This document shows, in pieces, positions 1,248 through 34,044 of a DNA stretch of 37,565 bases. Made by a program: the position numbers and the translations under genes. The DNA is from Oscillochloris sp. ZM17-4. Lineage in GTDB: Bacteria; Chloroflexota; Chloroflexia; Chloroflexales; Chloroflexaceae. The notes under the pieces were generated by a model. That model was not told where the DNA came from and searched no databases. It saw only the letters and a program-made list of their open reading frames with translations. The stretch is taken from contig NZ_JAIEWN010000004.1 in assembly GCF_019599295.1 (NCBI RefSeq), positions 34,796-72,360 of the forward strand, read 5' to 3'. Position 1 is the stretch's first letter, and every line of letters begins with the position of its first letter.

Positions 1248-1250
1248 TGA

Positions 1251-1306: not shown

Positions 1307-1314
1307 AGCGCTTG

Positions 1315-7984: not shown

Positions 7985-8406
7985 TCCCGGCCGACCCGCG
8001 CCAGCGCCCGGCGCACCACATCGCGCACCTGGGCGTAGCTCAGGCGGGCGAGCGCCTCCTTGGGCGGCAGCCAGCAGGCCTCGACGATGCCCTCGTCAAG
8101 GCGCGGGGTGGGCGTGGCGTGGTCAGCGCGGGCCAGAAAGTAGGCCACCTGCTTATCGCGCCAGGCCCCGCGCTTGAACACCGGGTAGACCATGCGGTGC
8201 AGCAGGTCGCCCAGATCGCAGTCGATGCCCGTCTCCTCGGCGATCTCGCGCACGGCCGCATCCTGCTCGTCCTCGCCGGCCTCCAGGTGCCCCTTGGGCA
8301 GCGTCCAGACGCCGTACTTGTCGCGGATCAGCAGCAGCAGCTGATCGCCGTCCGGGCCGTCGCAGAAGACGACGCCGCCGGCGGCGCGGATGAGCCCGCC
8401 GCTCAC
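7978..8406 (-). CDS. Nudix hydrolase
   Basis: The 142-residue protein is a single Nudix domain. The Nudix box runs through GHLEAGEDEQDAAVREI then AEETGI, matching GX5EX7REUXEEXGU with the metal-binding glutamates present. An aromatic KYGVWTLPKG precedes the box, as in diadenosine polyphosphate or nucleotide hydrolases; the substrate cannot be read from sequence. It starts with GTG and overlaps the ccdA stop by four bases (GTGA), so the two are translationally coupled on one minus-strand transcript. Confidence 0.9.
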   Translation of the reverse strand: MSGGLIRAAGGVVFCDGPDGDQLLLLIRDKYGVWTLPKGHLEAGEDEQDAAVREIAEETGIDCDLGDLLHRMVYPVFKRGAWRDKQVAYFLARADHATPTPRLDEGIVEACWLPPKEALARLSYAQVRDVVRRALARVGREG

Positions 8407-9341
8407 TGGAGGCCAAACAGGCGGCCGACGCCGCTCTCAAGCTGCACCCACCACTGGGCGAAGTCGCTGCTGTTCGTCACCCGCGAGATCGCCTCAAGCT
8501 GGCCGCTGGCCAGCAGCACGCCCATGGCCACCATCAGCATGCCGCTCATCAGGCTGGTGCTGTGCAGGAACAGGCTCCGCCCAAGGATGTTGACCTCGAA
8601 GCCCTTGCCGCGGATCACCTTCCAGAAGGACGAGCCGTTGCCCAGCCGGTTGAAGAAGGTCGAGAGCAGGATCAGCGGGGTGCCCAGGCCGAGGGCGTAG
8701 ATGAAGGCCAGCACCGCGCCTTGGAGGATCGCCACGCCGCTCGTGGTGGCCAGCAGGGTCAGCAGCGCCCCCAGGATCGGCCCGACGCAGGCCGTCCAGC
8801 CCAGGGCGAAGGTGGCCCCGTAGACATAGGATCCGAGCACCGTCGCCGCCGGTCGCTCCTGGATCTGCGGGCCGGCGAAGCCCTTGCCGAACATGCCCAT
8901 CAGCCCGAAGGCGATGATCACGATCCCGCCCCAGAAGGTCAGCGCCTGACGGTTGTCGAAGATCAGCCCGCTCAGGGCCGTCGCGCTGGCGCCCAGCAGG
9001 GTGATGGTGGTGGCCAGACCAAAGAAGAAGGCCACGCTCATCATGAAGACGCCGCGCTTGCCGGCCTGGAAGGTGAAGGCGAAGTAGGCCGGCAGGATGG
9101 GCAGGGTGCAGGGCGAGAGGAAGCTCAGCACGCCGGCCAGGAAGGCCGGCACCGCCAGCACCAGCACGCTGGAGCCGCCGGTCAGGTAGCTCACATCCTG
9201 GCCGCTGTTGAGCGAAAGCATGATCAGGGCCGCCAGCACCGCGATCGCGCCGACCGCGAACAGCATCCGGCGGTACCCCCAGCGATCCTTTGGGGGCTGA
9301 GCCTCAGCGGCGGGCTGGGCATCAACGGGCTGAGACGACAT
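8403..9341 (-). CDS. ccdA: CcdA/DsbD-type transmembrane thiol reductant carrier
   Basis: The 312-residue integral membrane protein carries the two conserved cysteine sites of the CcdA core: LSPCTLPILPAYF and WTACVGPILGALL. These sit in symmetric helices, as in proteins that move electrons from cytoplasmic thioredoxin to extracytoplasmic thioredoxin-like proteins. An N-terminal extension of about 25 residues precedes an extra helix (about 27-45). ATG 9341 is chosen because AGGAGAGGAG lies just upstream; a longer in-frame start at 9479 runs into a heptamer array. CcdA is the expected electron donor for the CcmG-like protein at 14468-14890. Confidence 0.88.
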   Translation of the reverse strand: MSSQPVDAQPAAEAQPPKDRWGYRRMLFAVGAIAVLAALIMLSLNSGQDVSYLTGGSSVLVLAVPAFLAGVLSFLSPCTLPILPAYFAFTFQAGKRGVFMMSVAFFFGLATTITLLGASATALSGLIFDNRQALTFWGGIVIIAFGLMGMFGKGFAGPQIQERPAATVLGSYVYGATFALGWTACVGPILGALLTLLATTSGVAILQGAVLAFIYALGLGTPLILLSTFFNRLGNGSSFWKVIRGKGFEVNILGRSLFLHSTSLMSGMLMVAMGVLLASGQLEAISRVTNSSDFAQWWVQLESGVGRLFGLQ

Positions 9342-9470
9342 CGAGTGCTCCTCTCCTCTGGGAAGGCCGGCCGCCACATCCGCAGCGGAACCCGCTCTCG
9401 CGGCGGGCAGAACGATTGAGCAACCTGCATAGGTGTTGCCCCTAGAACGCGTTGGAACGCCATGCACGGT

Positions 9471-9500
9471 AATCTGCAATCCAAAATCTGCAATCTGAAA
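9471..9500. repeat. Short heptamer array (AATCTGC)
   Basis: Three imperfect copies of the CAATCTG-type heptamer lie between two minus-strand genes. They are the same unit as at 4063-4138, 19435-19586 and 21809-21838. Confidence 0.7.
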
Positions 9501-14467: not shown

Positions 14468-14890
14468 CTATGGTGCGCTGCGGGCCAGCCCTTCTCGCTG
14501 TAGCTCAGTAAACCGTGCGGCTACGTCATCGAGCGTAAGTTCACCGACATGGACATAGCGGATCTGGCCTTGCGCATCGATAAAGAAACTCGTGGGGAGC
14601 GGGAACACCCGAAATGCATCCGTCACGCTGCCGTCACGGTCGAGGGCGATCGGGTAGGTCAGGTTATACTGCTCGGCAAACGTGCGGATACCATCCTCGC
14701 TGACGCCTTGGCTCTGCTCATCATCGGTCAGGTTCACGCCGATGATCGTCAGCCCCTTATCCCCGTAGCGCTCGTTCGCCGCCTGAAGCGCCGGAAGCTC
14801 ACGCTTGCACGGCTCGCACCATGTGCCCCAGAAGTTTACCAGCACCACCTGTCCGCGGTATGCTGTCAGGTTGACCGTATCGCCGCTCAA
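14468..14890 (-). CDS. TlpA/ResA/CcmG-like thioredoxin protein, N-terminus missing
   Basis: The 140-residue thioredoxin fold has the active site WGTWCEPCK (Cys25 and Cys28) and the cis-proline in FPLPTSFFID, followed by GQIRYVHVGELT. CcmG/ResA proteins reduce apocytochrome thiols outside the membrane and need a signal anchor; none is present here. Its TTG start overlaps the stop of the J-like gene by four bases (TTGA). The residues read in frame before the TTG (HSLQ) continue the expected TlpA strand. The anchor may have been lost by deletion, or the two genes may form one frameshifted protein. Its position after ccmF suggests a role in cytochrome c maturation. Confidence 0.75.
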   Translation of the reverse strand: MSGDTVNLTAYRGQVVLVNFWGTWCEPCKRELPALQAANERYGDKGLTIIGVNLTDDEQSQGVSEDGIRTFAEQYNLTYPIALDRDGSVTDAFRVFPLPTSFFIDAQGQIRYVHVGELTLDDVAARFTELQREGLARSAP

Positions 14891-15192
14891 GGTCTGCAGG
14901 CTGTGCGCTCGCGCGGGGTGATCGTACGGCGGGCGCTGGCGCTGACAGAGGCGATCTTGGCCGGGGCGGCGCCGATGCTGCTATCATACTGATGTCGCCG
15001 CGCGGGGTCTGAGAGGATAGCGTAGGCCCGCTCGATCGCGGCGGTGCGCTCCTCTGCGACCCGCCGCATATCATCGTCAAGATCAGCGACGCGCTCGGGG
15101 TTGTAGCGCTCCCGCTGCAGCTGATAGGCGGCCGCTATCTCCTCTGGGCCGGCCTGCTGCCCCAAGCCCAGCAGCGCATAATGTGTGTTCAT
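14887..15192 (-). CDS. J-like domain protein with NPE in place of HPD
   Basis: The 101-residue protein is a J-domain by layout: THYALLGLGQQAGPEEIAAAYQ (helices I-II, in parts), then RERYNPERV where DnaJ has YHPDR, then VAEERTAAIERAYAILSDPARRHQYD (helices III-IV). The HPD triad that stimulates DnaK is replaced by NPE, so classic co-chaperone activity is doubtful. After residue 74 comes a short unrelated tail (KIASVSASARRTITPRER) with no membrane segment. The stop overlaps the thioredoxin start. ATG 15192 is chosen to match the usual J-domain start, seven codons into the open frame. Confidence 0.75.
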   Translation of the reverse strand: MNTHYALLGLGQQAGPEEIAAAYQLQRERYNPERVADLDDDMRRVAEERTAAIERAYAILSDPARRHQYDSSIGAAPAKIASVSASARRTITPRERTACRP

Positions 15193-15208
15193 GCCTCGTA
15201 AACGCCTT

Positions 15209-15234
15209 AGCACCTGTATTTTAACACAGGTGCT
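15209..15234. repeat. 9-bp-stem hairpin between the two J-like genes
   Basis: AGCACCTGT (15209-15217) pairs with ACAGGTGCT (15226-15234) over an 8-nt AT-rich loop. T-rich sequence follows only on the plus strand, so its role for the minus-strand genes is unclear. It may attenuate or process the transcript between 15272-16390 and 14887-15192. Confidence 0.5.
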
Positions 15235-15271
15235 TTAACTTTTGTCGAACGGCTTCGCGCAAAAGGGACAA

Positions 15272-16390
15272 TTAGCGGCTATGCTCAGCGATCAGCTGGC
15301 GGGCCTGCTGGGCCACCCCTGGCTCAACATTCGGCATGACAATGGCCTTCTGCCACTGCTCAAGGGCCTGCGCCGTCTGCGGCGGGTCAGAGTAGACCAG
15401 GCAGAGCCCCTTGCTCAGCAGGGCCCGCCCCTCCTCCGGGGAGTCGCTGATCGCCTGGTCGGCCTCCGCAAGCCCCCGCGCTATATAGCTCTGGTCGTTC
15501 ACGCCCTGGCCGTAGTAGCAGAGGGCGGTGGCCATGTCGGCGCGAACCACCGGGTTGGCGGGGGTGATCGCCAGGGCTTTCGCATAGGCGTCGTGCGCCT
15601 CAAGCCAGCGCGGCAGGCGCTCGATATAGACTCCCTGAAAGCGCTGGTCGCCGCCGTCGATCCGCTCGCGCACCACCACCACGCTATCATAGAGGGCGTT
15701 GCCAAGCTCGATCCAGGCATTTGCGTTGTCGGGGACCTGCTGCGCCACCTGGCGCGCGGCGGTGATCTGGGCCTCGAACTGGTTAGCGATATCATCGACC
15801 GAGGGCGTCGGGGCGGATGCCGTGGGCTGGCCGAGCGCGCTTGGCCCGCTCGCGCTGCCCGCCGCCTGCTGCGGCGCGTTCCAGACCGTTGTGACGAGCG
15901 TGATCAGCACGATCGCGAAGGTGGCCACCGCGACGATCAGGATCGGCAGGACCCAGGTTGGAAGCCGCTGGGATCGCTCGATGCGACGGCCGCTGCGCCG
16001 GGGGGCGGCCTGCGCGGGTCGGATGCGGGGCTGGGTATCGAACCCCTTGGGCCGCTCCTGTCGCCGCGCCGGGGGCAGCGGGCGATAGTCGATCAGGTCA
16101 TCATCATCCAGGCCTGAATCGTCGCCCGCCGCCGCCGCCTCCACTGTCGCGGGGGCGGCGACCTGGGCGCTGAGATCGCTGTCGAATGTAGCGCGCCGCT
16201 TCGGGTCCGAAAGAACCGTGTAGGCCCGCTCGATCTCATCGCGGCGGCGGCGGGCGAGCTCGACCAGCTCATCGGCGGCGCCCTCTAGCAGCGATGAGTC
16301 ATAGCGCTGGCGCAGCCGCTCGTACGATGCGCGAATAGCCTCAAGATCGGCCTTCGGGTGGACTTGGAGTGTCTCGTAGTAGTCTTGCAT
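15272..16390 (-). CDS. J-like domain, one membrane helix and CcmI/NrfG-like TPR domain
   Basis: The protein has 372 residues. Residues 3-70 form a J-like domain (YYETLQVHPKADLEAIRASY ... LSDPKRRATFDSD) with QRYDSS where YHPD is expected, so HPD is lost. An acidic then Pro/Arg-rich linker leads to a basic patch (RRSGRRIERSQR) and one membrane helix, about 145-170, consistent with N-in topology. Residues 205-360 form TPR-like helices: DNANAWIELGNALYD, AHDAYAKALAITPANPVVRAD, ALEQWQKAI. The WQKAI pattern is typical of CcmI/NrfG, which hold apocytochrome c. Placed directly after ccmF, it may replace CcmI. The assignment is by pattern and context. Confidence 0.78.
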   Translation of the reverse strand: MQDYYETLQVHPKADLEAIRASYERLRQRYDSSLLEGAADELVELARRRRDEIERAYTVLSDPKRRATFDSDLSAQVAAPATVEAAAAGDDSGLDDDDLIDYRPLPPARRQERPKGFDTQPRIRPAQAAPRRSGRRIERSQRLPTWVLPILIVAVATFAIVLITLVTTVWNAPQQAAGSASGPSALGQPTASAPTPSVDDIANQFEAQITAARQVAQQVPDNANAWIELGNALYDSVVVVRERIDGGDQRFQGVYIERLPRWLEAHDAYAKALAITPANPVVRADMATALCYYGQGVNDQSYIARGLAEADQAISDSPEEGRALLSKGLCLVYSDPPQTAQALEQWQKAIVMPNVEPGVAQQARQLIAEHSR

Positions 16391-16420
16391 ATCCCAGCTA
16401 TTGCAGAGGGGAGGGACTCA

Positions 16421-16439
16421 CGGGAGGGCTACCCTCCCG
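16421..16439. repeat. Short hairpin between ccmF and the J/TPR gene
   Basis: CGGGAGGG (16421-16428) pairs with CCCTCCCG (16432-16439) over loop CTA, with weaker outer pairing of GAGGGA and CCTC. It lies in the 67-bp space between the two minus-strand genes. Confidence 0.6.
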
Positions 16440-16457
16440 CGAGCCTCCTGTGGTATG

Positions 16458-18875
16458 TCAGTCGCCGCTGGTAGGACGGGGGCTCTGTAGCCCACGTCGC
16501 CTCGCCAGACCACCGAACAGGCCCTTCGGCAGGCGCACGCGCTCGCCGGCGAGCGCGGCCTGGCCCTCAAGGTAGCGCCGGAGCAGCGCGATCACGCCGC
16601 CAATAACGCCGATCACCACGCCGGTCCAGACAAAGATCACCAGCGGCTTGACGCTCACCGTGATCACGCCCTTGGCCGGCACCGCCGGCAGGCTGTCGAT
16701 ACCATCGCCCTTGCCCTCAAGCAGCACCATGCGGTTGGTCGGGTCTACCTCAACGAGGGTCAGAGTCTGGCCGCCGGGCAGGGTTGCCGCAAGATGCTCC
16801 AGCTTCTGCTCGCCGGTGGCGGGGTCGGTGGCCACCTGGATCACCGGCTCAACCTCGCTCGTCTCCCCGTTATAGAGCACCGTTATCTTCGCGCCGACCT
16901 TGATCTGGCCGCCGCCGGTCATCGCCGCCGTGTCGAGGTTAAAGTCCACGAAGGTGAGCTCGTATGGTCCCATCGTGGTCGTGCTGCCGGCGCCGAGGAT
17001 CGGCCGGGCCGGGTTGACCTCCGGGTCGTAGCCGGCCGGCGAGATATAGACATCCTGGTAGAGCAGGCTGTGGATCGACGGGGTCTGCATCGTCGCGCCC
17101 ATGCGATCGTTGTAGTAGAGGTAGGGGCGCGCGCTGAAGGTGTCGTTCCTCCCGTCGGTCACGGTGAAGTCGAGCACCCCGCGCTGCTGATCGTCGAGCT
17201 GGTAGCCGTTGAAGGTGAAGTCGTAGCCATAGATCTTCGTCGTCTCGCCGGGGGCCATCACCAGGCGCTGCTCGGGGGTGGCGTAGGCGCTAGAGCCGAC
17301 CATGCCGATCATGGTCAGGCTAAAGCCGAGGTGCGCGAGGTAGCCGCCGATCCGCATCCAGCCGCCGCGCAGCGTGCGGATGATCATCACCAGGTTCGTG
17401 CCGATGGCGAAGGTGCCGCCGGCCACATAGGCCAGCGCGAGCACATCGCGCACATTGATCAGCATGGCGATGATCGCGGCGATCACCGCAGCGATGGCCG
17501 GCCAGCGCAGGGCGCGCAGCAGGTGCCGCATGTTCGCATCGCGCCAGCCGAGCAGCGGGCCGACGATCATCAGCATGATGATCACGGCGCCGAGCGGCGG
17601 GACGGTGCGCTTGTAGAAGCTCGCCGCCAGGCTGAAGCGGCCGTCGGTGAACGGCTGGGCCTGCGGGTTCATCAGGGTGCCGTCGTCCACCTCGAAGGCG
17701 CTACTCATCCAGCTCTGGAGCGTGTGGCCGAGGCCGGGGATGGCCGAGATCACCGGCATCGAGGTGCCAACGCCGACCACCAGGGCGGTCACGACAAACG
17801 AGATCATCATCAGGACGAAGAAGCTATCGCGCGAGAAGAACTTATCGCTGAGCGGGCGGGCCGGGATGTCGCGCCAGCGCATGACAAAGAGCGTCATGGC
17901 CACGGCGATCAGGAAGACCAGGAAGCCGACCAGCGAGTTGAAGATGCCCTCGGCCACAAAGGAGTGGACCGAGAAGTTTGCGTAGACGCCGCTGCGGGTG
18001 AGGAAGGTCGCGTAGAAGACCAGGATGTAGCCGAGGAGCGCGAGGAACAGATTCGCCTTGCGCATCCCGCCGTGCGAGCGCTGGAGCACCATGCCGTGGA
18101 TGAGGGCGGTGAGGATCAGCCAGGGCACCAGCGACGAGTTCTCCACCGGGTCCCAGCCCCAGTAGCCGCCCCAGCCGAGCGTCTCGTAGGCCCAGTAGCC
18201 GCCGAGCAGCAGGGCGAAGCCGAGGAAGGCCCATGCGGCGATCGTCCAGGGCAGCGCGCGGGCCACCCAGGTGTCGTAGTCGCGGCGCACGAGGGCGCTG
18301 ATCGCAAAGGCGAAGGGCACTGTGGTCAGGGCGTAGCCGACGAAGAGGATCGGCGGGTGGATGATCATCCAGAAGTTGTGCAGCAGCGGGTTGAGCCCCT
18401 TGCCGTCGGCGGGCAGCGCGGCCGGCAGCCCGGTGGCCGCATCGAGCAGCGGCTTAAAGGGGTTCAGGCTGAGCACAAACAGCAGCAGCGCCGTCTGGAC
18501 AAGCATCATGACCAGGAGCACATAGGGCTCGAAGTGCTTCGTCCGGCGCACCAGCAGGGCGGCGGCGATACCCCCCCAGATCGTCCAGATCAGAAAGCTG
18601 CCCGGCTGCCCGGCCCAGCTCGCCGCGACCACAAAGAAGAACTCCAGGTCGCGCGAGCTGTAGTTATAGACATAATCTATGTCGAAGCGATGGGCCAGAA
18701 ACAGCGTGAGCAGCAGCGTCCAGGCCATCAGCAGTGCGCCGAGGCTGCCGAAGACGCCGAAGCGGGCGTAGAGCAGCGCCAGGCGGTTGCCGCGAACCAC
18801 CAGCACATAGCTGACGATCGCGAGCAGGGCCATGGCGATCGAGGTGACGATTAGGAAGGTGCCGAGAGGGTACAT
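16458..18875 (-). CDS. ccmF: Cytochrome c heme lyase subunit CcmF
   Basis: The 805-residue polytopic membrane protein is the synthetase that joins heme from CcmE to apocytochrome c. The tryptophan-rich WWD domain GWGGYWGWDPVENSSLVPWL is at about residues 234-253. Conserved His-containing loops are seen in HNFWMIIHPPILFVGYA (about 166-182) and in FLTRSGVYANFSVHSF further on. It is longer than the usual 630-680 residues. The extra length is in a large beta-rich extracytoplasmic region near the C-terminus (residues about 540-750, including YGYDFTFNGYQLDDQQRG), then a final helix. ATG 18875 gives the standard start MYPLGTFLI. It follows ccmE on the same strand. Confidence 0.95.
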   Translation of the reverse strand: MYPLGTFLIVTSIAMALLAIVSYVLVVRGNRLALLYARFGVFGSLGALLMAWTLLLTLFLAHRFDIDYVYNYSSRDLEFFFVVAASWAGQPGSFLIWTIWGGIAAALLVRRTKHFEPYVLLVMMLVQTALLLFVLSLNPFKPLLDAATGLPAALPADGKGLNPLLHNFWMIIHPPILFVGYALTTVPFAFAISALVRRDYDTWVARALPWTIAAWAFLGFALLLGGYWAYETLGWGGYWGWDPVENSSLVPWLILTALIHGMVLQRSHGGMRKANLFLALLGYILVFYATFLTRSGVYANFSVHSFVAEGIFNSLVGFLVFLIAVAMTLFVMRWRDIPARPLSDKFFSRDSFFVLMMISFVVTALVVGVGTSMPVISAIPGLGHTLQSWMSSAFEVDDGTLMNPQAQPFTDGRFSLAASFYKRTVPPLGAVIIMLMIVGPLLGWRDANMRHLLRALRWPAIAAVIAAIIAMLINVRDVLALAYVAGGTFAIGTNLVMIIRTLRGGWMRIGGYLAHLGFSLTMIGMVGSSAYATPEQRLVMAPGETTKIYGYDFTFNGYQLDDQQRGVLDFTVTDGRNDTFSARPYLYYNDRMGATMQTPSIHSLLYQDVYISPAGYDPEVNPARPILGAGSTTTMGPYELTFVDFNLDTAAMTGGGQIKVGAKITVLYNGETSEVEPVIQVATDPATGEQKLEHLAATLPGGQTLTLVEVDPTNRMVLLEGKGDGIDSLPAVPAKGVITVSVKPLVIFVWTGVVIGVIGGVIALLRRYLEGQAALAGERVRLPKGLFGGLARRRGLQSPRPTSGD

Positions 18876-18920
18876 ACGTGAGCCTTCTAGGGTTTGGGCT
18901 GCCGCCTTATCAATGATATA

Positions 18921-18961
18921 TCTGGGTGAATGTTCCAGCGGAGCTGGAACATTCACCCAGA
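18921..18961. repeat. Perfect 19-bp-stem hairpin between ccmE and ccmF
   Basis: Bases 18921-18939 pair exactly with 18943-18961 across loop GGA; apex CCAGC-GGA-GCTGG. Its ends read TATATCTGGG and CCCAGATGATAT, resembling the ends of the palindrome at 29238-29288. It sits inside the ccm cluster and may set relative expression or mRNA stability of ccmE and ccmF. Confidence 0.85.
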
Positions 18962-18989
18962 TGATATGTCTGTTGCGCCCGTGGCGCAG

Positions 18990-19412
18990 CTACTTACTCG
19001 CGCTCGCCTGGAGCTCCTGGTACTTCGAGGGGCACTTCACGAGCAGGTCGTCGGCCATGAAGGCCTGCTGGGCGCTGTCGTAGTGGCCGATCGCGACGAT
19101 GCTGATCGCCTGCTCGAAGTTGGCGGGGCGCGGGTCGTCAGAGATCACCTTGACCATCTTCTTGTCCGAGTCCTGGAGCATAAAGGTGAAGCGGCCGGTG
19201 TCGTCCATCTCGCCCTTTGAGCCGAGGAAGCCGGCCAGTTGGATGCTGCGCGAGCTGCTGATCGCCTCGTCCACGCTGGTGGTGTAGGCGCGGAAGGCGT
19301 CTTTAAAGCCGAAGAGGCCGTAGATGATCGCCAGCAGGATGATGCCGACGCCGGCGATGTGGAGCGGCTTAATCTCGAAGCCGCGGCGGGCTGGTGCTGG
19401 TATAGTCGCCAT
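18990..19412 (-). CDS. ccmE: Heme chaperone CcmE, CXXXY type
   Basis: The 140-residue protein has a cytoplasmic start (PAPARRGFEIKP), one membrane helix at about 18-35 and an OB-fold domain (SIQLAGFLGSKGEM, GRFTFMLQDSD, QAFMADDLLVKCPSKYQ). CcmE binds heme covalently and carries it to CcmF. Most bacteria use a histidine in HXXXY. Here the site is Cys127-PSK-Tyr131, the variant known from archaea and some bacteria such as Desulfovibrio. No CcmH is found in the window, which fits that variant system. ATG 19412 is the only sensible start. Confidence 0.93.
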   Translation of the reverse strand: MATIPAPARRGFEIKPLHIAGVGIILLAIIYGLFGFKDAFRAYTTSVDEAISSSRSIQLAGFLGSKGEMDDTGRFTFMLQDSDKKMVKVISDDPRPANFEQAISIVAIGHYDSAQQAFMADDLLVKCPSKYQELQASASK

Positions 19413-19434
19413 TGCTCCCCTCGTGTTATACCAT

Positions 19435-19586
19435 TTCAGATTGCAGATTTTGGATTGCAGATTGCCGGATACTGCGTTCCACTACGCTATGTCCGTAATA
19501 CCTATGCAGGTGGCAGGTGGCAGGTGGCAGATTTGCCGCAACAGAGCGTTACCCAATCTGCAATCTGCAATCTGCAATCTGCAATC
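19435..19586. repeat. Three heptamer arrays between ccmE and ccmD
   Basis: GATTGCA-type units occupy about 19435-19466, GGCAGGT units 19506-19529 (three to four copies), and CAATCTG units about 19554-19586 (four and a half copies). The first and last are inverted relative to each other, so the intervening 100 bases could form a looped stem. The 172-bp space between ccmD and ccmE is almost entirely this material. Confidence 0.85.
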
Positions 19587-19797
19587 ACTTCTTCGCCGGC
19601 TCGGCCTCGCTCACCCTGGTGACCGTGGCGCGTGTGGGGGCGGGCTGCTCGCGCGGCTGCTCGCGCTCCATCTCGCGCTTGAGTGCGCGGGCCTGGGCGT
19701 CGATCCGCCAGAGGTAGACAAAGATACCGATCCAGACAGACAGCGTGACAGCCATGGCGACATAGGTCGCCGCGCCTGCCTCAAGCGCCACATTCAT
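19585..19797 (-). CDS. ccmD: CcmD-like small heme exporter subunit
   Basis: The 70-residue protein has one helix, VAMAVTLSVWIGIFVYLWRI (about residues 12-31), followed by a basic, charged tail (DAQARALKREMEREQPRE). CcmD proteins are poorly conserved but always small, with a single helix and basic cytoplasmic tail. They help release holo-CcmE from CcmABC. ATG 19797 overlaps the ccmC stop by four bases (ATGA), so coupling with ccmC is clear. I shortened the frame from 19830, since that would overlap ccmC further. Confidence 0.75.
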   Translation of the reverse strand: MNVALEAGAATYVAMAVTLSVWIGIFVYLWRIDAQARALKREMEREQPREQPAPTRATVTRVSEAEPAKK

Positions 19798-20759
19798 GAG
19801 CGCGCCCCCTCTCTGCGGGCCAGCGCCCACTGCACGCCTAGCAGCGTCGCTCGCACGTTGAGCATCCAGAAGAACAGTGCGGTAAATCCGAAGATCGAGG
19901 CCAGGAAGGTGAAGAGTGTGCGCCCGTTATCAAGCAGGCCTGTGCCGGGGGCCTCGATATTCAGCCGCACGCTATTTGTCGTCATATCGACGCCCTCGAC
20001 CACGAGGCTGAAGCGCAGCCCCGGGAAGTTGGGCCGATCGACCGCATTGTCGAGCGCCACATCGTAGGTTGGGCTCAGGGTCGCGCTGCCATTCAGCCCC
20101 GGCTCCGTCACCTGCACCTGCGCCGTCACCACATCGCCGGCACGGTCGAGGCTTAGCAGCTCGACCTTGCGGTCTCCCAGCAGCCCGAGCTTGCCGACCT
20201 CCAGCGCGATCCCATCGCACGTGCTGCCCTGGATGAAGGCGCAGTTGGGGTGGAGCGTGCTGTCGCTGATGCGGGGGGCGATGAAGATCAGGAAGGGGAC
20301 GGTGATGAAGGCGAAGATCGAGTAGACCGCGCTGAGCTGGCGGCGGCGGGCGACATCGTCGATGGATGAGCGGAGGGCGAAGAGCGCGGCGTAGATCAGC
20401 AGCAGCACAAAGATCGATGTCTGACGCGGGTCCCAGTTCCAGTAGACGCCCCAGACCACCTGCGAGAAGATCGCCCCGGTGACGGTGGCGAGAACCGTGA
20501 AGAGAAATCCGCTCTCGGCGGCGGCGAGGGCGTAGTCGTCGTGCTCGGGGCGCCCGCGCCAGAGGTAGAGCCCGCTGAACAGCGCCGATATCGCAAACGC
20601 CATCACGCTCACCCAGGCTGTGGGCACGTGCATAATGATGATGCGCCCGGCATTGCCCAGGCCCTCGTACTGCGGTACCACGAGGAACATCGCCACCGCA
20701 ACACCTGCGATCCACACCCCAACCAGCAGCTTGGCAGTCTGGGCCATGCGCTGTGCCAT
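19794..20759 (-). CDS. ccmC: Heme exporter subunit CcmC with an extracytoplasmic insert
   Basis: The 321-residue integral membrane protein has the WWD heme-handling motif in VVWGVYWNWDPRQTS (about residues 101-115) and helices before and after it. CcmC presents heme to CcmE. The usual length is 220-250 residues. Here about 90 extra residues lie between the fifth and sixth helices (about 164-270), beginning SDSTLHPNCAFIQGSTCDG. The insert contains beta-strand-like text such as VTAQVQVTEPGLNG. The His of TLHP is retained as in normal CcmC. It is followed by ccmD with a 4-base overlap. Confidence 0.92.
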   Translation of the reverse strand: MAQRMAQTAKLLVGVWIAGVAVAMFLVVPQYEGLGNAGRIIIMHVPTAWVSVMAFAISALFSGLYLWRGRPEHDDYALAAAESGFLFTVLATVTGAIFSQVVWGVYWNWDPRQTSIFVLLLIYAALFALRSSIDDVARRRQLSAVYSIFAFITVPFLIFIAPRISDSTLHPNCAFIQGSTCDGIALEVGKLGLLGDRKVELLSLDRAGDVVTAQVQVTEPGLNGSATLSPTYDVALDNAVDRPNFPGLRFSLVVEGVDMTTNSVRLNIEAPGTGLLDNGRTLFTFLASIFGFTALFFWMLNVRATLLGVQWALARREGARS

Positions 20760-20954
20760 CGGCCTACGCCTTTCCAGTCCCTTATAGGAAAATACCTGTT
20801 TGACGTATCATACTACGCCGGTGCGTCACGGACAACAGCAATTTGCTACCTTGTCATGATGTAACCTGCGTGCCAGGGGTTTCATGTGCATTTCATCACG
20901 CAGCATGTTTATCGCATGGGCAATATATCACATGTCGCGCGATCCGCTTCGGGG

Positions 20955-21710
20955 CTACGCCTCCCAGACGAAGCGGAAGAGCATGAGCGAGGCGACGAAC
21001 ATGGCCACCGCGTAGGCCAAAAGCGTGCGGATCGCCGGCAGGGCCAGGGTCATCCCGGCGCTATCGAGGGTGAGCGCGGTGCCCTGGATGGCGACGATCA
21101 GCGGGGGCACGAGCAGGGGGAAGGCGAGGACGGCGAAGAGGGCGCTCTTGAAGCTGGCCCTGGCGATGATCGCGGCCAGGATGGTGGTCGCCGTAGCCAG
21201 GCAGAGCCCGCCGGCCGCCAGCACCAGCACGAAGGCGAGCGGGCTGCCAACCTCGACCCGCACCAGGACGATGAAGAGCAGGCTGGTGACCGTATCGAGG
21301 AGCAGGAGCAGGGCCAGGTTGAAGAGCAGCTTCCCGAGGTAGACCGAGATCGCCGGCGCGGCCAGGCGCAGGGCGGCCATGGTGCGCGTCTCCTCCTCGT
21401 ACACGAAGCCTCGCGAGAGGCCGTTCAGCGCGGCGAAGAGCAGGGCGATCCAGAGCAGGGCCGACTGGATGAGCAGATACTCATCAGTGCGGCGCATGCC
21501 GATAAAGCCCACGCCCAGGCTCACCGCCACCGCCGCGCTGGCGGCGAAGAGCACCAGCGCGTTCAGCGCGTAGCGCGTGCGCAGCTCGCTGCGCAGATCC
21601 TTCACGAAGATCGCCCAGGCTGCCGCCAGCAGATCGCGGACACCAATCGAGCGGATGGCCTGGCCTGGCTCGATCTCTTGCTGCTCTTGCTGCTCTGGCT
21701 GGGCTTGCAT
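20955..21710 (-). CDS. ccmB: Heme exporter subunit CcmB
   Basis: The 251-residue protein has six hydrophobic helices and the CcmB start (AAWAIFVKDLRSELRTRYALN). The conserved LNGLSRGFVYEEETRTMAALRL segment (given in parts: LNGLSRGF, EEETRTM) contacts the ATPase, and FPLLVPPLIVAI is the typical late motif. With CcmA it forms the ABC transporter that drives release of holo-CcmE from CcmC. A Gln/Glu-rich stretch (residues 5-16) precedes the core. It is separated from ccmC by 195 bp without a gene and from ccmA by repeats. Confidence 0.93.
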   Translation of the reverse strand: MQAQPEQQEQQEIEPGQAIRSIGVRDLLAAAWAIFVKDLRSELRTRYALNALVLFAASAAVAVSLGVGFIGMRRTDEYLLIQSALLWIALLFAALNGLSRGFVYEEETRTMAALRLAAPAISVYLGKLLFNLALLLLLDTVTSLLFIVLVRVEVGSPLAFVLVLAAGGLCLATATTILAAIIARASFKSALFAVLAFPLLVPPLIVAIQGTALTLDSAGMTLALPAIRTLLAYAVAMFVASLMLFRFVWEA

Positions 21711-21742
21711 AGAGGTACTATTACATCTGGCTTGATAGTGTT

Positions 21743-21838
21743 CACCTTGTCACCGGAACTGACAAGGTGACAAGGTGACAAGGTGACGGCCTGGTGTCCT
21801 ACTGCGTCAAATCTGCAATCTGCAATCTACAATCTGAA
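21743..21838. repeat. Tandem arrays between ccmA and ccmB
   Basis: Three and a half copies of the 8-mer GTGACAAG lie at 21760-21787, preceded by an inverted copy (CACCTTGTCAC, 21743-21753). Then CAATCTG heptamers run at about 21809-21838, one changed to CAATCTA. Confidence 0.8.
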
Positions 21839-21846
21839 ATCTTATC

Positions 21847-22470
21847 TTACGGGCTGCCGAGCTGCAGCAGCAGATCGGCATAGCGCAGCTCGCGCGGGTC
21901 GTTCGTCGCGACCACGACGATGCCCTCCCGCCGCTGGCGGGCGATCACCTGATCGACCACCTCGGCCCCGCGGGTGTCCAGCGTCACGGTCGGCTCGTCG
22001 AGCAGCAGCACCGGGGGGCGGTGGATGAGCGCGTAGGCGTAGCGCAGGCGGTATGCCATCCCTGAGGAGTAGGCGGACAGCCGATCATTGCCGCGGCCGC
22101 CCAGCCCAACCTGCACGAGAAGATCGTCGATCTCGGTGTCGCCCAGGCTCAGGCGACGCACATCGGCGAAGAAGCGCAGGTTCTCGCGGGCGGTCAGCTC
22201 GCGGTAGAGGGCCAGATCCGGGGCGACCCAGCCGATAATTGGGCCAGCCTCGCGCGGAGCCCATGCCCTCCCCGCGCACGCATACACGGCGATGCCCGCC
22301 GAGGGCTGCTGCAGTCCGGCAAGCAGCCGCAGGAAGGTGCTCTTGCCGCTGCCGTTTGAGCCGCTCACCACCAGCACCTCGCCCCGCCGCACCTGGAGGC
22401 TCACGCCGGCGAAGACGGTGCGCGCGCCGTAGCTCGCGGCGAGCTCTTCTACTGTCAGGCTGATCTCCAT
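21847..22470 (-). CDS. ccmA: Heme exporter ATPase CcmA
   Basis: The 207-residue ABC ATPase has Walker A GSNGSGKST (about residues 36-44), a signature region LSAYSSGMAYRLRYA in place of LSGGQ (CcmA proteins vary here), and Walker B with VLLLDEPTVTLD. The final AT-ND switch corresponds to VVVATNDPREL. It drives the CcmABCD complex. ATG 22470 yields the normal CcmA start (MEISLTVEELAASYG); the longer open frame to 22650 would translate intergenic repeats. First gene of the ccm run, 190 bp behind the alpha/beta hydrolase. Confidence 0.93.
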   Translation of the reverse strand: MEISLTVEELAASYGARTVFAGVSLQVRRGEVLVVSGSNGSGKSTFLRLLAGLQQPSAGIAVYACAGRAWAPREAGPIIGWVAPDLALYRELTARENLRFFADVRRLSLGDTEIDDLLVQVGLGGRGNDRLSAYSSGMAYRLRYAYALIHRPPVLLLDEPTVTLDTRGAEVVDQVIARQRREGIVVVATNDPRELRYADLLLQLGSP

Positions 22471-25829: not shown

Positions 25830-25862
25830 GTGTTGCGGCGCAGCGAAGCTGCGCCGCAACAC
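25830..25862. repeat. Perfect 15-bp-stem hairpin after spoVR
   Basis: Bases 25830-25844 pair exactly with 25848-25862 across loop GAA; apex GCAGC-GAA-GCTGC. It begins at the spoVR stop (fwd 25862-25864) and lies before the next minus-strand gene. It could act as an mRNA 3'-end stabiliser. Confidence 0.85.
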
Positions 25863-28564
25863 TAATCAATCCGCCGCTCGGTGAAGTCGCTGCCATCGAA
25901 GGAGAGCAGCCGCTTCTTGTCGTCGATCAGGGTCTCCAGGTGGATGGGCCGGGTCCAGATCTTATGCAGGTTGCGCATCGTGTCGCGGGCGTAGTCCATC
26001 TTCAGATCGACGCCCTCGTGGCGGTGGCGCAGGTACATCTCGCCGCGGTTGTTGTAGTTGCCGTCCTCGACGTAGATGAAGGGCTGGCCGAAGTTGGTGA
26101 GCCGGAAGAGCAGCTTCTCCTTGATCTCCTTGAACTCGCGCGAGGCGATCTCGTAGAGGTCGGTGTCGCGGTTGTAGCGGAAGGAGAAGAGCTTGTTCTC
26201 GATCACGAACTCGGGGGTCAGGAACTCGTCGATGAAGGTGACATCGTTGTAGAGCTTGCGCACCTCGAAGAGCTTCTGGCGGCCCAGGCCGAGCTGCTTG
26301 TCCCAGGTGCGCTTGGCGGCGATGTCGTCGCACTCGTCGTACTCCTTGCCGAAGCGGCCCTTGTCCCAGCGCTCCTCCACGTCGCGCAGCAGCTCAAGCC
26401 CCAGCTTGTAGGGGTTCAGCCGGCCGCCGCCGGTGGCCACCACGCCCGAGTGCAGGTCGGCGAAGGAGACGATCTCGGAGGCCGTGGCCACCTTCTGGGT
26501 CATGATCGTGCTGTGCCAGTAGCTGTTGTGGTTGATGAAGCCCTGGGCCGCGTAGCGGTGCGTCTCCGTCACCGAGATGTCGTACACATCGGCGCGCCCG
26601 CGCTCGATGCTCACAACCTCGTCGTCCCATGCCTCGGCCTTGTACCAGCGGCGGTTCTCAAGGTATTCCCCCAGGGCGGCCTGCTTGCGCTCCAGGCCGA
26701 AGCCGACCCGCATGTAGAAGTCGACCGCCGAGCGGCCCGCCGTGTGGATGTGCCAGCAGCCATCCTGCTGTGGGCGGCGGGTCGAGAGGATGCCGAAGTT
26801 CAGCAGGAGCAGCTGCACCAGCTTGCCCATCTCCTCGCTTGACGAGGAGAGGATGATACCCTGCTTTCCGGCGTAGCCGTCGCAGTCGTAGAGGGCGCGC
26901 AGGAAGCTGGCGACGACCCGCTCAGGCGAGCGCAGGATCACGTCGGGCACCGTCTTCTGACGCGCGGAGACGCCGGTTGTCAGGCCGAGGTGCTTGAGGA
27001 AGTCCTGCACATCGAGCGATGAGAAGCTGATCCGCCAGCGGTTGCCGTCCTGGCGCCAGCGGGCCTCGATGCCGAAGAGCGAGCTGACCAGGTTGGCGAA
27101 GACCTGGGCCTGATCCTCGTCGCCGGTGGTCAGGCCGATGGTGCGCTTGACCACGCTGATATGCCCGTCGCCGCAGAGGTAGCCGAGGAAGGCGGCCAGG
27201 CGCTCGTCGACGATCTCGGGCACGCGGATGGGCTTGCGCGAGTTGCAGGGCGGGCCGAGGACTGCGGTCGCGGCCTCATATTCAGTGACAAGCGGGGCGA
27301 GCGCGGCATCAGCGCGGGTCTTACGGCCCTGGCGATAGCGCAAGACCGTATCGATCGATACGCCCGCCTGCTGGGCGACGCTGTTCAATGTCGCACGCGC
27401 GGTCGGCTTCCAGCTCAGGCGCACCTGCTCGGTGGCCCAGAGCCGCTGGCCGCCACTGATCTTCACCCGGTCGCCGAGCTGCATCTCATCGAGGCGTCGC
27501 CAGCTCTCGTCGGGCAGCATCAGCCGGTGGTTGAACGAGCCCTCCAGCTCCAGGCCGCGACGGGTGCGGATCTTCACCGTCTCGTAGTCTTCGAACTTCG
27601 CCCAGTCGTAGATCTGCTGGCGCTCTTCGCCGTCGCTGACCAGAGCTGTCGAGGCAGTGTCAACGATCTCTTTTATACGTAGAATTCCACTCTGAGTATA
27701 CACTAGAGAATTGATCTGGAGGCAGGCCCATCCTTCGTTGATGACCTTGGTCATCCCCTGGGGCGCGAAGTAGTAGGCCTCGTCGCGGATGATCTCCAGG
27801 ACGGTGTGCTGCCAGCGGTCGAGGGGCGCGTAGTTCATCAGGAAGAGCAGGATGTCGCGCTGGGGGTTCTCGGGGAAGCGGCGCAGCTTCTCGCGCTCGT
27901 CCTCGATCTTCTTGCGCTGGGCGGCCATGTACTCGGGCGGGTTGATGTAGTCGCGCATGTAGCCGCGGTCAACCCTGAGCCCCTGGGCCGTCTCCTCCTC
28001 GGCCTCGGCCGCGCCCGCCGCCGGCGGCTGGGACTGGGCCTCGGCGCGCTTGATATAGGGCGAGTGGTAGTCGATCAGGTTCTCCAGCGAGAGGCAGGTG
28101 TCGATAAAGTCCTCGACGACATCGTAGCCGATGCGGTCGATGATCCGCTGGATGCGGGTGGCGTGGTTCGCCATCGCGTCGAGCATCTTGCGGTTGGTGT
28201 GGGCGAACCACATATTATTCTTGAAGAAGTCGACGTGGCCGGTGACGTGGGCCATCACCATCTTCTGGGTCACGTCCTCGTTGCCCTCCAGCAGGTAGGC
28301 GTAGGACGGGTTGGTGTTGATCACCATCTCGTAGATCGTCGAGCCCTGCCAGATATGGCCCTTCATCAGCTGGTCGAAGTCCATGCCGAAGCGCCAGTGC
28401 GGGTAGCGCGTGGGGAAGCCGCCCATGGCCGCCGTCTCATAGAGGGTGCGGTAGTCGAGCACCTCGTAGAGGATCGGGAAGAAGTCGAGGCCGTAGGCGC
28501 GGGCGTGGGCCTCGATCTCCTCGCGGGCGGCCTCCAGGTTCGGCGGAATGCGGGTGTTTCTCAT
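25862..28564 (-). CDS. spoVR: SpoVR/YcgB family protein containing an intein
   Basis: The precursor has 900 residues. Extein residues 1-280 and 681-900 together make a 500-residue SpoVR protein (ARAYGLDFFPILYEVLDY, MAHVTGHVDFFKNN, NEGWA|SYWHSTIMT, LGRQKLFEVRKLYNDVTF in parts). SpoVR proteins act in spore cortex formation in Bacillus and in stress responses elsewhere; the chemistry is unknown. Residues 281-680 are an intein inserted in the highly conserved NEGWA-SYWHS motif, so splicing is required for function. GGGGAG lies before ATG 28564. The gene ends a minus-strand run with prkA, yhbH and a glycosyltransferase. Confidence 0.94.
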   Translation of the reverse strand: MRNTRIPPNLEAAREEIEAHARAYGLDFFPILYEVLDYRTLYETAAMGGFPTRYPHWRFGMDFDQLMKGHIWQGSTIYEMVINTNPSYAYLLEGNEDVTQKMVMAHVTGHVDFFKNNMWFAHTNRKMLDAMANHATRIQRIIDRIGYDVVEDFIDTCLSLENLIDYHSPYIKRAEAQSQPPAAGAAEAEEETAQGLRVDRGYMRDYINPPEYMAAQRKKIEDEREKLRRFPENPQRDILLFLMNYAPLDRWQHTVLEIIRDEAYYFAPQGMTKVINEGWACLQINSLVYTQSGILRIKEIVDTASTALVSDGEERQQIYDWAKFEDYETVKIRTRRGLELEGSFNHRLMLPDESWRRLDEMQLGDRVKISGGQRLWATEQVRLSWKPTARATLNSVAQQAGVSIDTVLRYRQGRKTRADAALAPLVTEYEAATAVLGPPCNSRKPIRVPEIVDERLAAFLGYLCGDGHISVVKRTIGLTTGDEDQAQVFANLVSSLFGIEARWRQDGNRWRISFSSLDVQDFLKHLGLTTGVSARQKTVPDVILRSPERVVASFLRALYDCDGYAGKQGIILSSSSEEMGKLVQLLLLNFGILSTRRPQQDGCWHIHTAGRSAVDFYMRVGFGLERKQAALGEYLENRRWYKAEAWDDEVVSIERGRADVYDISVTETHRYAAQGFINHNSYWHSTIMTQKVATASEIVSFADLHSGVVATGGGRLNPYKLGLELLRDVEERWDKGRFGKEYDECDDIAAKRTWDKQLGLGRQKLFEVRKLYNDVTFIDEFLTPEFVIENKLFSFRYNRDTDLYEIASREFKEIKEKLLFRLTNFGQPFIYVEDGNYNNRGEMYLRHRHEGVDLKMDYARDTMRNLHKIWTRPIHLETLIDDKKRLLSFDGSDFTERRID
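26525..27724 (-). mobile_element. Intein with LAGLIDADG homing endonuclease, inserted in spoVR
   Basis: Precursor residues 281-680 (400 aa). Block A begins with Cys281 (CLQINSLVYTQSG). Block B has EGSFNHRLML with its His. Two LAGLIDADG helices are clear: AAFLGYLCGDGHIS (Asp466) and ASFLRALYDCDGYA (Asp562), both with the acidic residue needed for cutting. A helix-turn-helix-like segment (TLNSVAQQAGVSIDTVLRYR, residues 392-411) may aid DNA binding. Block F/G is YDISVTETHRYAAQGFINHN, with His679 and Asn680 before Ser681. All splice residues are present, so the intein looks active. Confidence 0.95.
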
Positions 28565-28576
28565 ACGTCTCCCCTA

Positions 28577-30775
28577 TCACCACGAGACACGTAGGGCGGC
28601 TCGGAAGATCAGGCTGTGGGCGAAGAGCCCGACGAGGATCAGGGCGGCGAGGGCGATCTGGCTGCGGCGGCTCGTCTCTCTCATGATACCATCGGCCAGC
28701 GCTGTCGCAAGGAGAATATGGCTGAAGAGCCAGATCCGCTCGACCTCGCGGTAGAACAGGCCGGAGAGCAGCATGCCGCCGATCAGGGCGGCGGCCCCGG
28801 CCCAGACGGCGTCGGCGGGCCGTGGGCTGCCGGCGACGATCTGGCCGACGCCCCGCCGCGCGCCGACGATCAGCCGGTGCAGCAGCCAGGGGCCGAGGAA
28901 GCAGCCGTAGGCCACGGCGTTCACCGCCAGGAAGAACAGGTAGCTGGACAGGCCGAGCGGCGAGACGCGCTCGCCGACGTCGATCTTGTTGTTGGCCACG
29001 CCCATGAGGAAGGCGGCGAGGCTGCTGTAGCCGCTGAGCAGCCAGACCGCGCCGAGGGCCAGCAGCGCCGCGCCGGCCACGGTCGCCGCCAGCCCCGCCC
29101 AGCGCAGCAGGTCGGCCCGGCCGACGGGGCCGGCGCGCAGCCGCCAGACCGCCAGGGTCAGGGCCACCAGCCCCAGCATCAGCGTGGTGAAGCTGAGCAG
29201 CAGGCCGAGGGCGATCAGCAGGCCGGCGAGGACTGGATATATCTGATGCAGGGCCGAACGCGCAGCGTTCGGCCCTGCATCAGATATAAAAGTAGCGTAC
29301 AGCGCCCAGGTGGCCCAGGCCAGCACTGTGGCCAGCAGGGCGTCCATCGAGGTGGCCGCGTAGATCATATAGGCCGGCAGCAGGGCGTAGATCGCGGCGG
29401 CCAGCGTGCCCGCGCGCCAGCCGCTCAGCCGGCGGGCCAGCAGGTAGGTCGGCCAGACGCCCAGGGCGGCCAGGGCGATCACGGCCCAGGTAGCAGGCTC
29501 AGGCCCGGCCCCCAGCGTGTACTCAACGAGCCAGAGGAAGAGCGTGTTCCCCGGCGGGTGGGTCTTATTGTGCAGGGCCAGGTCGGGCATGGCGGCCACG
29601 TAGCCGCGCAGGAAGCCGATCGGGTCGGCGCCGACCAGGGGCACGTCGCGGATGTAGTCGCCCTCCTGGAGCGCGAAGGTCTGGAAGAGCGAGTCCCAGC
29701 CGCGCAGGGAGGCCTTGAGGGCGACGGGCAGGCCGGCGGCGGCCAGCCAGCTCACGCCAACGACCAGGGCGGCGGGCGGCGGTGCGTCCCGGCGCAGCCA
29801 GAAGATGACGGCGGCGGCGAAGATCGCGAACAGGCCGGCGGGCAGGGCGGCGGCCCAGGAGAGCTCAGTGCCGGCGCGGGCCATCAGCGGGAAGGGCCAG
29901 AAGTAGCCAGGCAGGTGCGCCATCGCGTACCAGCCGACGCCGAGCAGGGCGGCGGTCAGGGCCACGCCGAGCAGCTCGCGCTGCCAGGCGCTCAAGCGCG
30001 GCGCGGCGGACTGGTAGGCGACCACGGCGCCGAGCACGAGGGACAGGGACACGGCCGCGAAGGCGCTCCAGAAGGGCAGGTTGGGGGCGACGCGCAGCGC
30101 GCCGCCGAGCAGCCCCGCGCCGAGCAGGGCCAGCGGCGCGAGGGCCAGCGCGAGGGCCAGCAGCCTCGGCAGGTCGAGCCGGCGCAGCAGCCAGTAGCCG
30201 CCGACGGCGAGCCAGAGGTTCACGGCCAGCTGCCCGTAGGGCGGCGCGGCGGGGCCGAGCTTCCAGAGCTCGGCCGAGCGCAGGCCGACCCCGACCACCC
30301 GGCCCTGGCCGGGGTCTACCGTGGCGCTGATCAGCGTGAGGCAGACCGGGCCGGCCAGGGGCGCGGGCGGGGTGAGCATGCGGTAGCGGCGGCTCTCGGG
30401 CGCGATCTGGAGCGGGATCGTCAGCTCGCCGAGGCGCAGGTCGGCCCGGTCGATGCCGGCGACCGAGCTGCCGAGCAGATCGAGCTGGAGGATGCCGGCC
30501 GGGCGGGTGGCCCCGGCCGCCGGGAGGCAGACCGTGCCCTCGCCCTTCGTCCAGCGGTAGGGGTTCGGCGTGTCGGCCGCCTCAAGCGACTGGAAGCCGG
30601 AGAAGAGGCCGAGGATGCGGTCGTCGGCGCGCACCTGGGTGTGGTAGGCCCCGCCGTAGTAGGCCAGGGTGAGGGCCAGGGCTAGCAGGCCGAGCAGCAG
30701 GGGCGGGGCGACCGCCCAGGGCGCGCGGGCGACGGTACGGGGCGCGCGACGAGTGGCGAAGGACAGGCTGCTCAC
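28577..30775 (-). CDS. Polytopic membrane glycosyltransferase (GT39/ArnT-like)
   Basis: The 732-residue protein has a dozen or more hydrophobic helices. A soluble beta-rich loop of about 130 residues lies after the first helix (about 48-180). [18 protein letters not shown] near residue 410 matches the HPPG loop seen in several PMT/ArnT-type transferases that use polyprenyl-linked sugars. The GTG start overlaps the yhbH stop by four bases, and 12 bp separate its stop from spoVR. A perfect palindrome (29238-29288) encodes about residues 496-513, between two helices. The substrate is unknown. Confidence 0.75.
29238..29288. repeat. In-frame 24-bp-stem palindrome within the glycosyltransferase gene
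   Basis: Bases 29238-29261 pair exactly with 29265-29288 across loop GCA; 51 bases, so 17 codons. It encodes [17 protein letters not shown]-type sequence in an otherwise hydrophobic helix-to-helix loop. Ends (TATATCTG/CAGATATA) resemble the hairpin at 18921-18961. Confidence 0.9.
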
Positions 30776-31881: not shown

Positions 31882-31892
31882 ATGCGTTGTGA

Positions 31893-31959
31893 AAGGATGA
31901 AGGATGAAGGATGAAGGATGAATGTCTACTCTCATCCTTCATCCTTCATCCTTCATCCT

Positions 31960-31962: not shown

Positions 31963-34044
<2,082 letters not shown>

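Follow-up and report, generated by a model that had tools for sequence, protein, structure and literature searches.

HPD-less J-like domains on the CcmI-like and CcmG-like proteins of Chloroflexales cytochrome c maturation loci: candidate cytoplasmic docking modules

Why would proteins of a cytochrome c maturation locus carry, on the cytoplasmic side of the membrane, J-like domains that lack the HPD motif of DnaK co-chaperones? The question is raised by a stretch of 37,565 nucleotides from Oscillochloris sp. ZM17-4 (contig NZ_JAIEWN010000004.1, positions 34,796 to 72,360; hereafter the window), in which ccmABCDEF is followed by a gene for a J-like domain joined through one transmembrane (TM) helix to a TPR domain (J-TM-TPR), and then by open reading frames (ORFs) for a second J-like domain and a thioredoxin (Table 1). 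We find that both J-like domains belong to the J family and lack HPD in the relatives scored, and we propose, at roughly even probability, that the locus encodes a Chloroflexales form of CcmH-less, System I*-like maturation in which these domains act as cytoplasmic docking modules and not as DnaK co-chaperones.

Both J-like domains of the window score over the Pfam DnaJ cut-off of 27.8 bits, that of the TPR protein at 35.2 bits (E = 1.3e-8, residues 3-70) and the second J-like ORF at 43.9 bits (E = 2.6e-11). At E 0.01 the family matches all 32 J-TM-TPR proteins chosen for one alignment (A1) and 26 of the 29 rows of another (A2), i.e., 25 of 27 full proteins plus the J half from the window, and a profile of the TPR protein run against PDB sequences matches DnaJ (1bq0) along positions 2-75 with E 2e-16. 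An AlphaFold2 (AF2) model of the window TPR protein, computed with 38 relatives from named loci, has J helices at residues 4-7, 16-29, 40-61 and 63-87, with a predicted local distance difference test score (pLDDT) of 92-98 up to residue 70 (blocks of ten), after which residues 147-170 form a further helix and residues 198-371 a helical TPR region. In the model of an uninterrupted J-TM-thioredoxin protein from a relative (locus L138) the J helices resemble these (pLDDT 74-92), and a helix at 93-118 precedes a thioredoxin fold. The rows of our structure search contain no J part, so the J fold rests on the models, Pfam and the PDB-sequence profile search; together these bear out the assignment of both domains to the J family in an earlier preliminary description of the window. 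Chance resemblance to DnaJ was considered and rejected, since the regions score over the Pfam cut-off and are kept across the order.

With canonical DnaJ as the ruler in a single alignment, the HPD position reads DSS and NPE in the two window domains, confirming the losses first read from the window alone. HPD is found in none of 62 TPR-protein J domains of relatives, where D-P-A and A-P-E are the commonest triads, and in none of 51 thioredoxin-protein J domains (two of them gapped at this position), where N-P-E and A-P-E prevail; neither J-like domain has the HPD between helices II and III that characterizes a DnaK co-chaperone. The same alignment has HPD in all 18 other J domains, taken from the window genome and from hand-picked matches in related genomes, and in all 30 sequences of a paralogue of the order described below; both counts are of distinct sequences, with L003 = L223 and L135 = L251 counted once. 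Of eight short or cut ORFs that were scored apart, one, which is a different protein, bears HPD; the seven others lack it, with the histidine kept in that of genome G018. Within the ccm operon we saw no J gene with HPD.

The paralogue is typified by a gene at 406-1920 (minus strand) of locus L003, whose product bears HPD and has a long stretch after helix II like that of both ccm-linked J-like domains. It resembles them in this feature and differs in keeping the HPD that both have lost, in each of the 30 best matches read from the order. The copy of the window genome lies on a different contig from ccmF, with no other Pfam domain and no TPR or thioredoxin match. The search for this type matched 82 of 82 genomes, a count that includes ordinary DnaJ and is not proof of an L003-type protein in each.

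We then find that loss of HPD is accompanied by constraint. Median ratios of nonsynonymous to synonymous substitution rates (dN/dS) were obtained for three genera with saturated-dS pairs excluded (usable J pairs: 12 of 15, 14 of 28 and 10 of 10 for the TPR protein; 7 of 10, 11 of 28 and 10 of 10 for the thioredoxin protein). They come to 0.087, 0.033 and 0.118 for the J domain of the TPR protein and 0.107, 0.063 and 0.133 for that of the thioredoxin protein, compared to 0.539, 0.324 and 0.49, and 0.404, 0.291 and 0.351, for the respective linkers between J and membrane. The membrane segment plus second linker of the TPR protein gives 0.33, 0.12 and 0.33 and the membrane segment of the thioredoxin protein 0.332, 0.149 and 0.17, while the TPR domain (0.137, 0.028, 0.077), the thioredoxin domain (0.056, 0.029, 0.132) and the DYRPLP segment of the TPR protein (0.074, 0, 0) are lower. 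We conclude from these comparisons of coding sequence that both J-like domains are under purifying selection and, with values far below those of the linkers, that they are not relics, at least in these three genera. Simple decay after HPD loss is disfavoured by the same ratios, yet the thioredoxin-protein copy is eroded in genera g25 and g34. Loss of HPD with fold and selection kept points to binding rather than to stimulation of an Hsp70, and the suggestion of the preliminary description that the domains are adaptors rather than DnaK co-chaperones is favoured to this extent, with the function itself deduced.

The arrangement is a property of the order. A J-TM-TPR search of 158 genomes of the class, 82 of them from the order of the window (four families), gives matches at E 1e-5 in 104; six genomes of the order have no match and two (G029, G062) weak ones only, while no match outside the order is better than E 3.4e-8 and, among the matches listed, only the J part is covered (from residues 1-3 to at most 174). 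We mapped 80 stretches of the order, picked by their J-TM-TPR matches, and find the TPR gene in 74, of which 68 also hold ccmF, on the strand of the TPR gene and no more than 700 bp away in every case (68 of 68); the remaining six have the TPR gene at the end of a contig. This linkage to ccmF is far beyond chance, and the neighbourhood survey supports the conserved association anticipated for the locus, with two metagenome-assembled genomes (MAGs) as exceptions. A thioredoxin gene follows on the same strand in 63 of the 74 TPR loci, within 700 bp in 59 and at gaps of 789-1304 bp in the remaining four, all of genus g32; none is present in the stretch in 11. The hosts include Oscillochloris, Chloroflexus islandicus, Ca. 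Chloroploca, Ca. Viridilinea, Roseiflexus MAGs and one Herpetosiphonaceae MAG; genera g32 and g20 are, we presume, of Roseiflexus type and Herpetosiphon type, and are so called here. When the eight genomes of the order without a clear TPR match were checked, four (G060, G019, G061, G080) had a contig that stops at or just past ccmF and two (G063, G073) had no ccmF match, which leaves the two MAGs with weak matches. No J match was found in 40 ccmF neighbourhoods (up to 14 kb) from other families of the phylum.

In two genomes (G039, G040) the J-TM-thioredoxin gene lies off the ccmF contig (loci L137 and L136, respectively) and keeps its HPD-less J domain. A 3.1-kb contig titled 'Cyanobacteria bacterium M5B4' (L163) carries a Chloroflexales-type J-TM-TPR gene and is probably mis-binned.

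The 'second J-like protein' and the 'CcmG-like thioredoxin', described earlier as two proteins, turn out to be halves of one gene. J and thioredoxin share a single ORF in 47 other gene copies (246-288 residues from the chosen start), and a membrane helix separates the two in the 27 relatives checked for it; the window has a J-like ORF of 108 residues and a thioredoxin ORF of 140 residues without a membrane helix. A DNA alignment with the sister locus L039 (genome G034, same genus) reveals one 124-bp block missing at 14903/14904. The membrane helix and the sequence flanking it are lost with this block, and the reading frame is shifted, without a further frameshift in that alignment. Because of this deletion, which is either a real lesion or an assembly error, the window thioredoxin has no membrane anchor and its ORF starts at an internal TTG. 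That start overlaps the stop of the J half and both halves have intact frames, as would be expected if the split were a working novelty yielding a soluble J-like protein and a cytoplasmic thioredoxin, but the one deletion accounts for the split, none of the mapped relatives has it and CcmG-type proteins function outside the membrane, so we regard such a novelty as highly improbable. Four other thioredoxin-family matches are present in the window genome (E 8e-27 to 4e-17).

The thioredoxin domain itself is of a familiar kind. That of the L138 protein superimposes on ResA (2f9s; Z 23.1, rmsd 1.4, 138 aligned residues) and on E. coli CcmG (2b1k; Z 18.0, rmsd 2.6, 143 aligned residues), and the thioredoxin fold, the CXXC motif and the single N-terminal helix of CcmG/ResA proteins are all present in relatives, with the helix missing from the window copy. 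The NCBIfam ResA and DsbE models match the window thioredoxin half under their cut-offs. These proteins share with CcmG/ResA a membrane-anchored thioredoxin fold with WCEPC, and differ in the N-terminal cytoplasmic J-like domain.

CcmI/NrfG is the TPR apocytochrome holder of the CcmF complex, and the protein next to CcmF in the window is like it in having a TPR domain outside the membrane. Basic residues before the helix outnumber those after it in 31 of 32 TPR proteins and in 22 of 27 thioredoxin proteins, and this excess places J inside and the TPR or thioredoxin domain outside. All TPR families score under their Pfam cut-offs on the window protein (TPR_CcmH_CycH, 20.8 bits against 42), and TPR_CcmH_CycH matches 22 of the 32 A1 proteins at E 0.01. 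Structure-search rows for the TPR part tie at Z 15-16, with generic TPR and 14-3-3 proteins among them, so that no family is singled out; NrfG was not found among the 50 structure-match rows listed, from which nothing follows on NrfG kinship. The idea of a CcmI analogue with a cytoplasmic J fold thus stands by position, topology and adjacency to ccmF, and falls short in the sub-threshold Pfam match. The two also differ in layout: CcmI has two helices and a short cytoplasmic region, which in R. capsulatus contains a leucine zipper according to the excerpt of one study (PMC3884852), compared to one helix and a J-like domain here. The best-kept cytoplasmic stretch of the TPR protein is a conserved DYRPLPPA-x-RQERP, the DYRPLP core of which survives the loss of J in Herpetosiphon-type genomes; lying between J and the membrane, it probably makes an additional contact.

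The surrounding machinery resembles System I*. The CPSKY motif is present in CcmE of all 64 relatives and of the window, and CcmH (PF03918) is detected in 0 of the 82 genomes of the order, including 0 of the 56 most complete, by a search that matches 4 of 14 named genomes used as a control; the resemblance follows from these two features. In the excerpt of a survey of this pathway, System I* is recognized by a cysteine-type CcmE, Chloroflexi are listed as carrying it, and CcmH accompanies such a CcmE in about one third of the bacteria that have it (PMC3601427), so a missing CcmH is of a known kind and the J-like domains are the novelty. Like System I* of Desulfovibrio, archaea and some Chloroflexi, the order combines CPSKY CcmE and no CcmH with CcmABCDEF; it differs in its CcmG-like thioredoxin, absent from the Desulfovibrio system, and in the J-like domains on CcmG- and CcmI-like proteins. 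Absence of CcmH is common but not obligatory in System I*, and absence of CcmG is a Desulfovibrio trait that is not clearly defining. CcmF of the order has about 90 extra residues in its C-terminal region (within 641-747 of the sister genome G034), missing from most of the 10 CcmF of other Chloroflexota compared, and this segment might make up for the absent CcmH.

As to origin, the two J-like domains are each other's nearest kin by sequence. They group together with support 99/93 in a careful tree against 16 other and 14 paralogous HPD domains, and with support 89 in a quick tree, both built from hand-picked subsets (the careful tree without rows T_G049, T_G051, H_L118 and H_L119), and in 16 of 20 genomes the distance between them is smaller than that from either one to the HPD paralogue. 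Their history was mapped on a ccmF tree of 65 genomes that does not include G029 and G062. Some states were set by hand: thioredoxin-protein J present in G049, G074, G076 and G081 (divergent J) and in G039 and G040 (gene elsewhere), both J present in G003 and G030 (contig cut), and TPR-protein J unknown in G001 and G004. Five rows that read as TPR without J and thioredoxin with J are cut or frame-split TPR genes (G001, G004, G018, G021, G048). On this tree the J domain of the TPR protein changes once, a loss in six Herpetosiphon-type genomes, which keep a TM-TPR protein starting near DYRPLP.

With J-like domains on exactly the two subunits expected to handle apocytochrome, and no CcmH, docking of the two arms is favoured. 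We envisage a CcmI-like TPR protein and a CcmG-like thioredoxin, each on one helix with its N terminus inside and each with a cytoplasmic HPD-less J-like domain, which would not stimulate DnaK and would instead bind the other J-like domain and/or the cytoplasmic face of CcmF or another partner; such docking would keep the TPR arm, for apocytochrome holding, and the thioredoxin arm, for CXXCH reduction, beside the heme ligase. Among known J proteins, Pam18 keeps HPD, and it has a degenerate partner in Pam16. In Pam16/Pam18 (Tim16/Tim14) a J and a degenerate J domain likewise sit on neighbouring membrane subunits and pair with each other, as given in excerpts of two studies (PMC3806816, PMC2695266), and in the latter the complex is formed by the J domains, with Pam18 stimulating mtHsp70 and less active when complexed with Pam16. 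Here neither domain has HPD, and the likeness is drawn as an analogy. By that analogy, the two domains could form a cytoplasmic J:J clamp, an Hsp70-free bacterial counterpart of Pam16/Pam18. A single J-TM module would have been duplicated onto both the apocytochrome holder and its reductase, and the clamp would take the place of CcmH by linking reduction and holding with heme ligation on the two sides of the membrane; we regard this more specific scheme as doubtful, if worth stating.

The proposed docking bears on how a CcmH-less System I-type machine passes reduced apocytochrome to CcmF, in an order with cultured phototrophs and with a cytoplasmic module on just the subunits concerned; the natural losses in Herpetosiphon-type and Roseiflexus-type genomes provide built-in controls. 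If true, it would be an unusual bacterial case of J folds retained as docking parts after their Hsp70 function was lost, and the J-like domains suggest an unstudied docking step in cytochrome assembly in most members of the order. In the open-licence literature, which leaves subscription papers mostly outside its coverage, searches on J domains or Chloroflexus together with Ccm gave no report of such J-bearing maturation proteins.

Several observations weigh against docking of the two arms through their J-like domains. Herpetosiphon-type genomes have J on neither protein, and Roseiflexus-type genomes have it on the TPR protein and not on the thioredoxin protein, so that J:J pairing cannot be the only role, which argues for a further partner. 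On the thioredoxin protein J changes five times on the ccmF tree, best read as losses in g20, g32, g11, g17 and g24, and with about five losses it is dispensable in some lineages. This copy also evolves about twice as fast as its own thioredoxin part in two of three genera, the TPR-protein J is clearly faster than TPR in one genus and about equally constrained overall, and dS is saturated in many pairs. By an approximately unbiased (AU) test, a tree that places the thioredoxin-protein J beside the HPD paralogue is not rejected (p = 0.38). In G029 the ccmF contig continues for more than 7 kb, and in G062 there are several ccmF pieces, and the TPR gene is found at none of these; both genomes carry a J-thioredoxin gene, which in G062 has D-P-A at the HPD position and directly follows a divergent ccmF, with no TPR gene between (L272, 6897-10282). 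A rule that J never occurs on the thioredoxin protein without J on the TPR protein is contradicted by these two and was dropped; both are fragmented MAGs of 1050 and 3840 contigs with 6% and 8% contamination, respectively. Outside the order, the cysteine-type CcmE motif is found in 26 of 29 ccmE ORFs of the neighbourhoods, and is not special to the order, and of 40 genomes with ccmF that were picked from other families of the phylum (out of the 268 of 400 phylum genomes with a CcmF_C match), 38 have CcmH.

These losses, together with the bad erosion of the thioredoxin-protein J in g25 and g34, are what one would expect if the domains were gene-fusion relics whose only use now is to cap the N terminus stably or to help membrane insertion; the dN/dS of J far under the linkers and near the working domains in three genera, and the single loss of the TPR-protein J on the tree, make this unlikely. 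That the TPR protein keeps its J even in genomes whose thioredoxin protein is without one could reflect coupling of maturation to export, through binding of SecA/SecYEG, the ribosome or another cytoplasmic factor, such that apocytochrome meets TPR and thioredoxin on emerging. The strong conservation of J and its cytoplasmic location beside an export-dependent pathway are consistent with such coupling, but nothing points to one partner, and we hold it to be distinctly unlikely. The kept fold and helix packing would also permit DnaK, or a related Hsp70, to be recruited through a surface that does not depend on HPD, the domains being weak or regulatory co-chaperones like Pam16, and the lower activity of Pam18 on mtHsp70 in complex with Pam16, reported in the excerpt cited above (PMC2695266), gives this some appeal. 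Since none of the 113 domains counted has HPD (two are gapped), other J domains in related genomes have retained it, and we saw no J gene with the motif in the operon, we give it little credence.

Table 1. Features of the window around the maturation locus (window coordinates).
Feature	Coordinates	Strand	Basis
ccmA	21847..22470	-	ATG at 22470, mechanical ORF from 22650; ABC_tran over Pfam cut-off
ccmB	20955..21710	-	Pfam CcmB, E 4e-15, over cut-off
ccmC	19794..20759	-	Pfam Cytochrom_C_asm, E 1e-24, over cut-off; TIGR01191 under its cut-off
ccmD-like small membrane protein	19585..19830	-	TIGR04391 CcmD_alt_fam, 31.1 bits against cut-off 24, over
ccmE, cysteine type	18990..19412	-	Pfam CcmE, E 4e-11, over cut-off
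CPSKY motif of CcmE, residues 127-131	19020..19034	-	Read in translation
ccmF, 832 residues	16458..18956	-	Pfam Cytochrom_C_asm and CcmF_C over cut-off
J-TM-TPR protein, 372 residues, CcmI-like by position and layout	15272..16390	-	Pfam, AF2 model, relatives
J-like domain of TPR protein, residues 3-70	16181..16384	-	Pfam DnaJ over cut-off, model, profile
HPD position of TPR protein, here DSS, residues 31-33	16292..16300	-	Alignment
Conserved cytoplasmic motif DYRPLPPARRQERP of TPR protein, residues 101-114	16049..16090	-	Relatives, dN/dS
Single membrane helix of TPR protein, residues 147-170, basic side facing J	15881..15952	-	AF2 model, charge count
TPR domain, residues 198-371, outside the membrane by topology	15278..15799	-	Pfam, model
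J-like half of interrupted J-TM-thioredoxin gene, ATG at 15192	14887..15192	-	Pfam DnaJ over cut-off; whole gene in relatives
HPD position of second J-like domain, here NPE	15094..15102	-	Alignment
Junction of 124-bp deletion	14903..14904	-	DNA alignment with sister L039
Thioredoxin half, CcmG/ResA-type, WCEPC, without membrane anchor here	14468..14890	-	Pfam AhpC-TSA/Redoxin over cut-off
CcdA/DsbD-type membrane protein, outside the operon	8403..9479	-	Pfam DsbD_TM, E 4e-12

The gene order first described, ccmABCDEF and then the J-TM-TPR gene on the same strand, holds by coordinates and by Pfam and NCBIfam matches. The six ccm genes run from 22470 to 16458 on the minus strand, and each product is over some Pfam or NCBIfam family-level cut-off; the NCBIfam models specific for CcmB, CcmC and CcmF score the window products well under their cut-offs, and TIGR01189 (ccmA), the top-scoring family for CcmA, falls slightly under its own (125.1 against 131.6 bits). 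The CcdA/DsbD-type protein outside the operon is a possible electron donor for the thioredoxin.

Elsewhere in the window, a SpoVR-family gene at 25862-28564 (minus strand) contains an in-frame intein with splicing and LAGLIDADG domains, and has as neighbours a DUF444 gene (30772-31935) and a PrkA gene (31960-34152).

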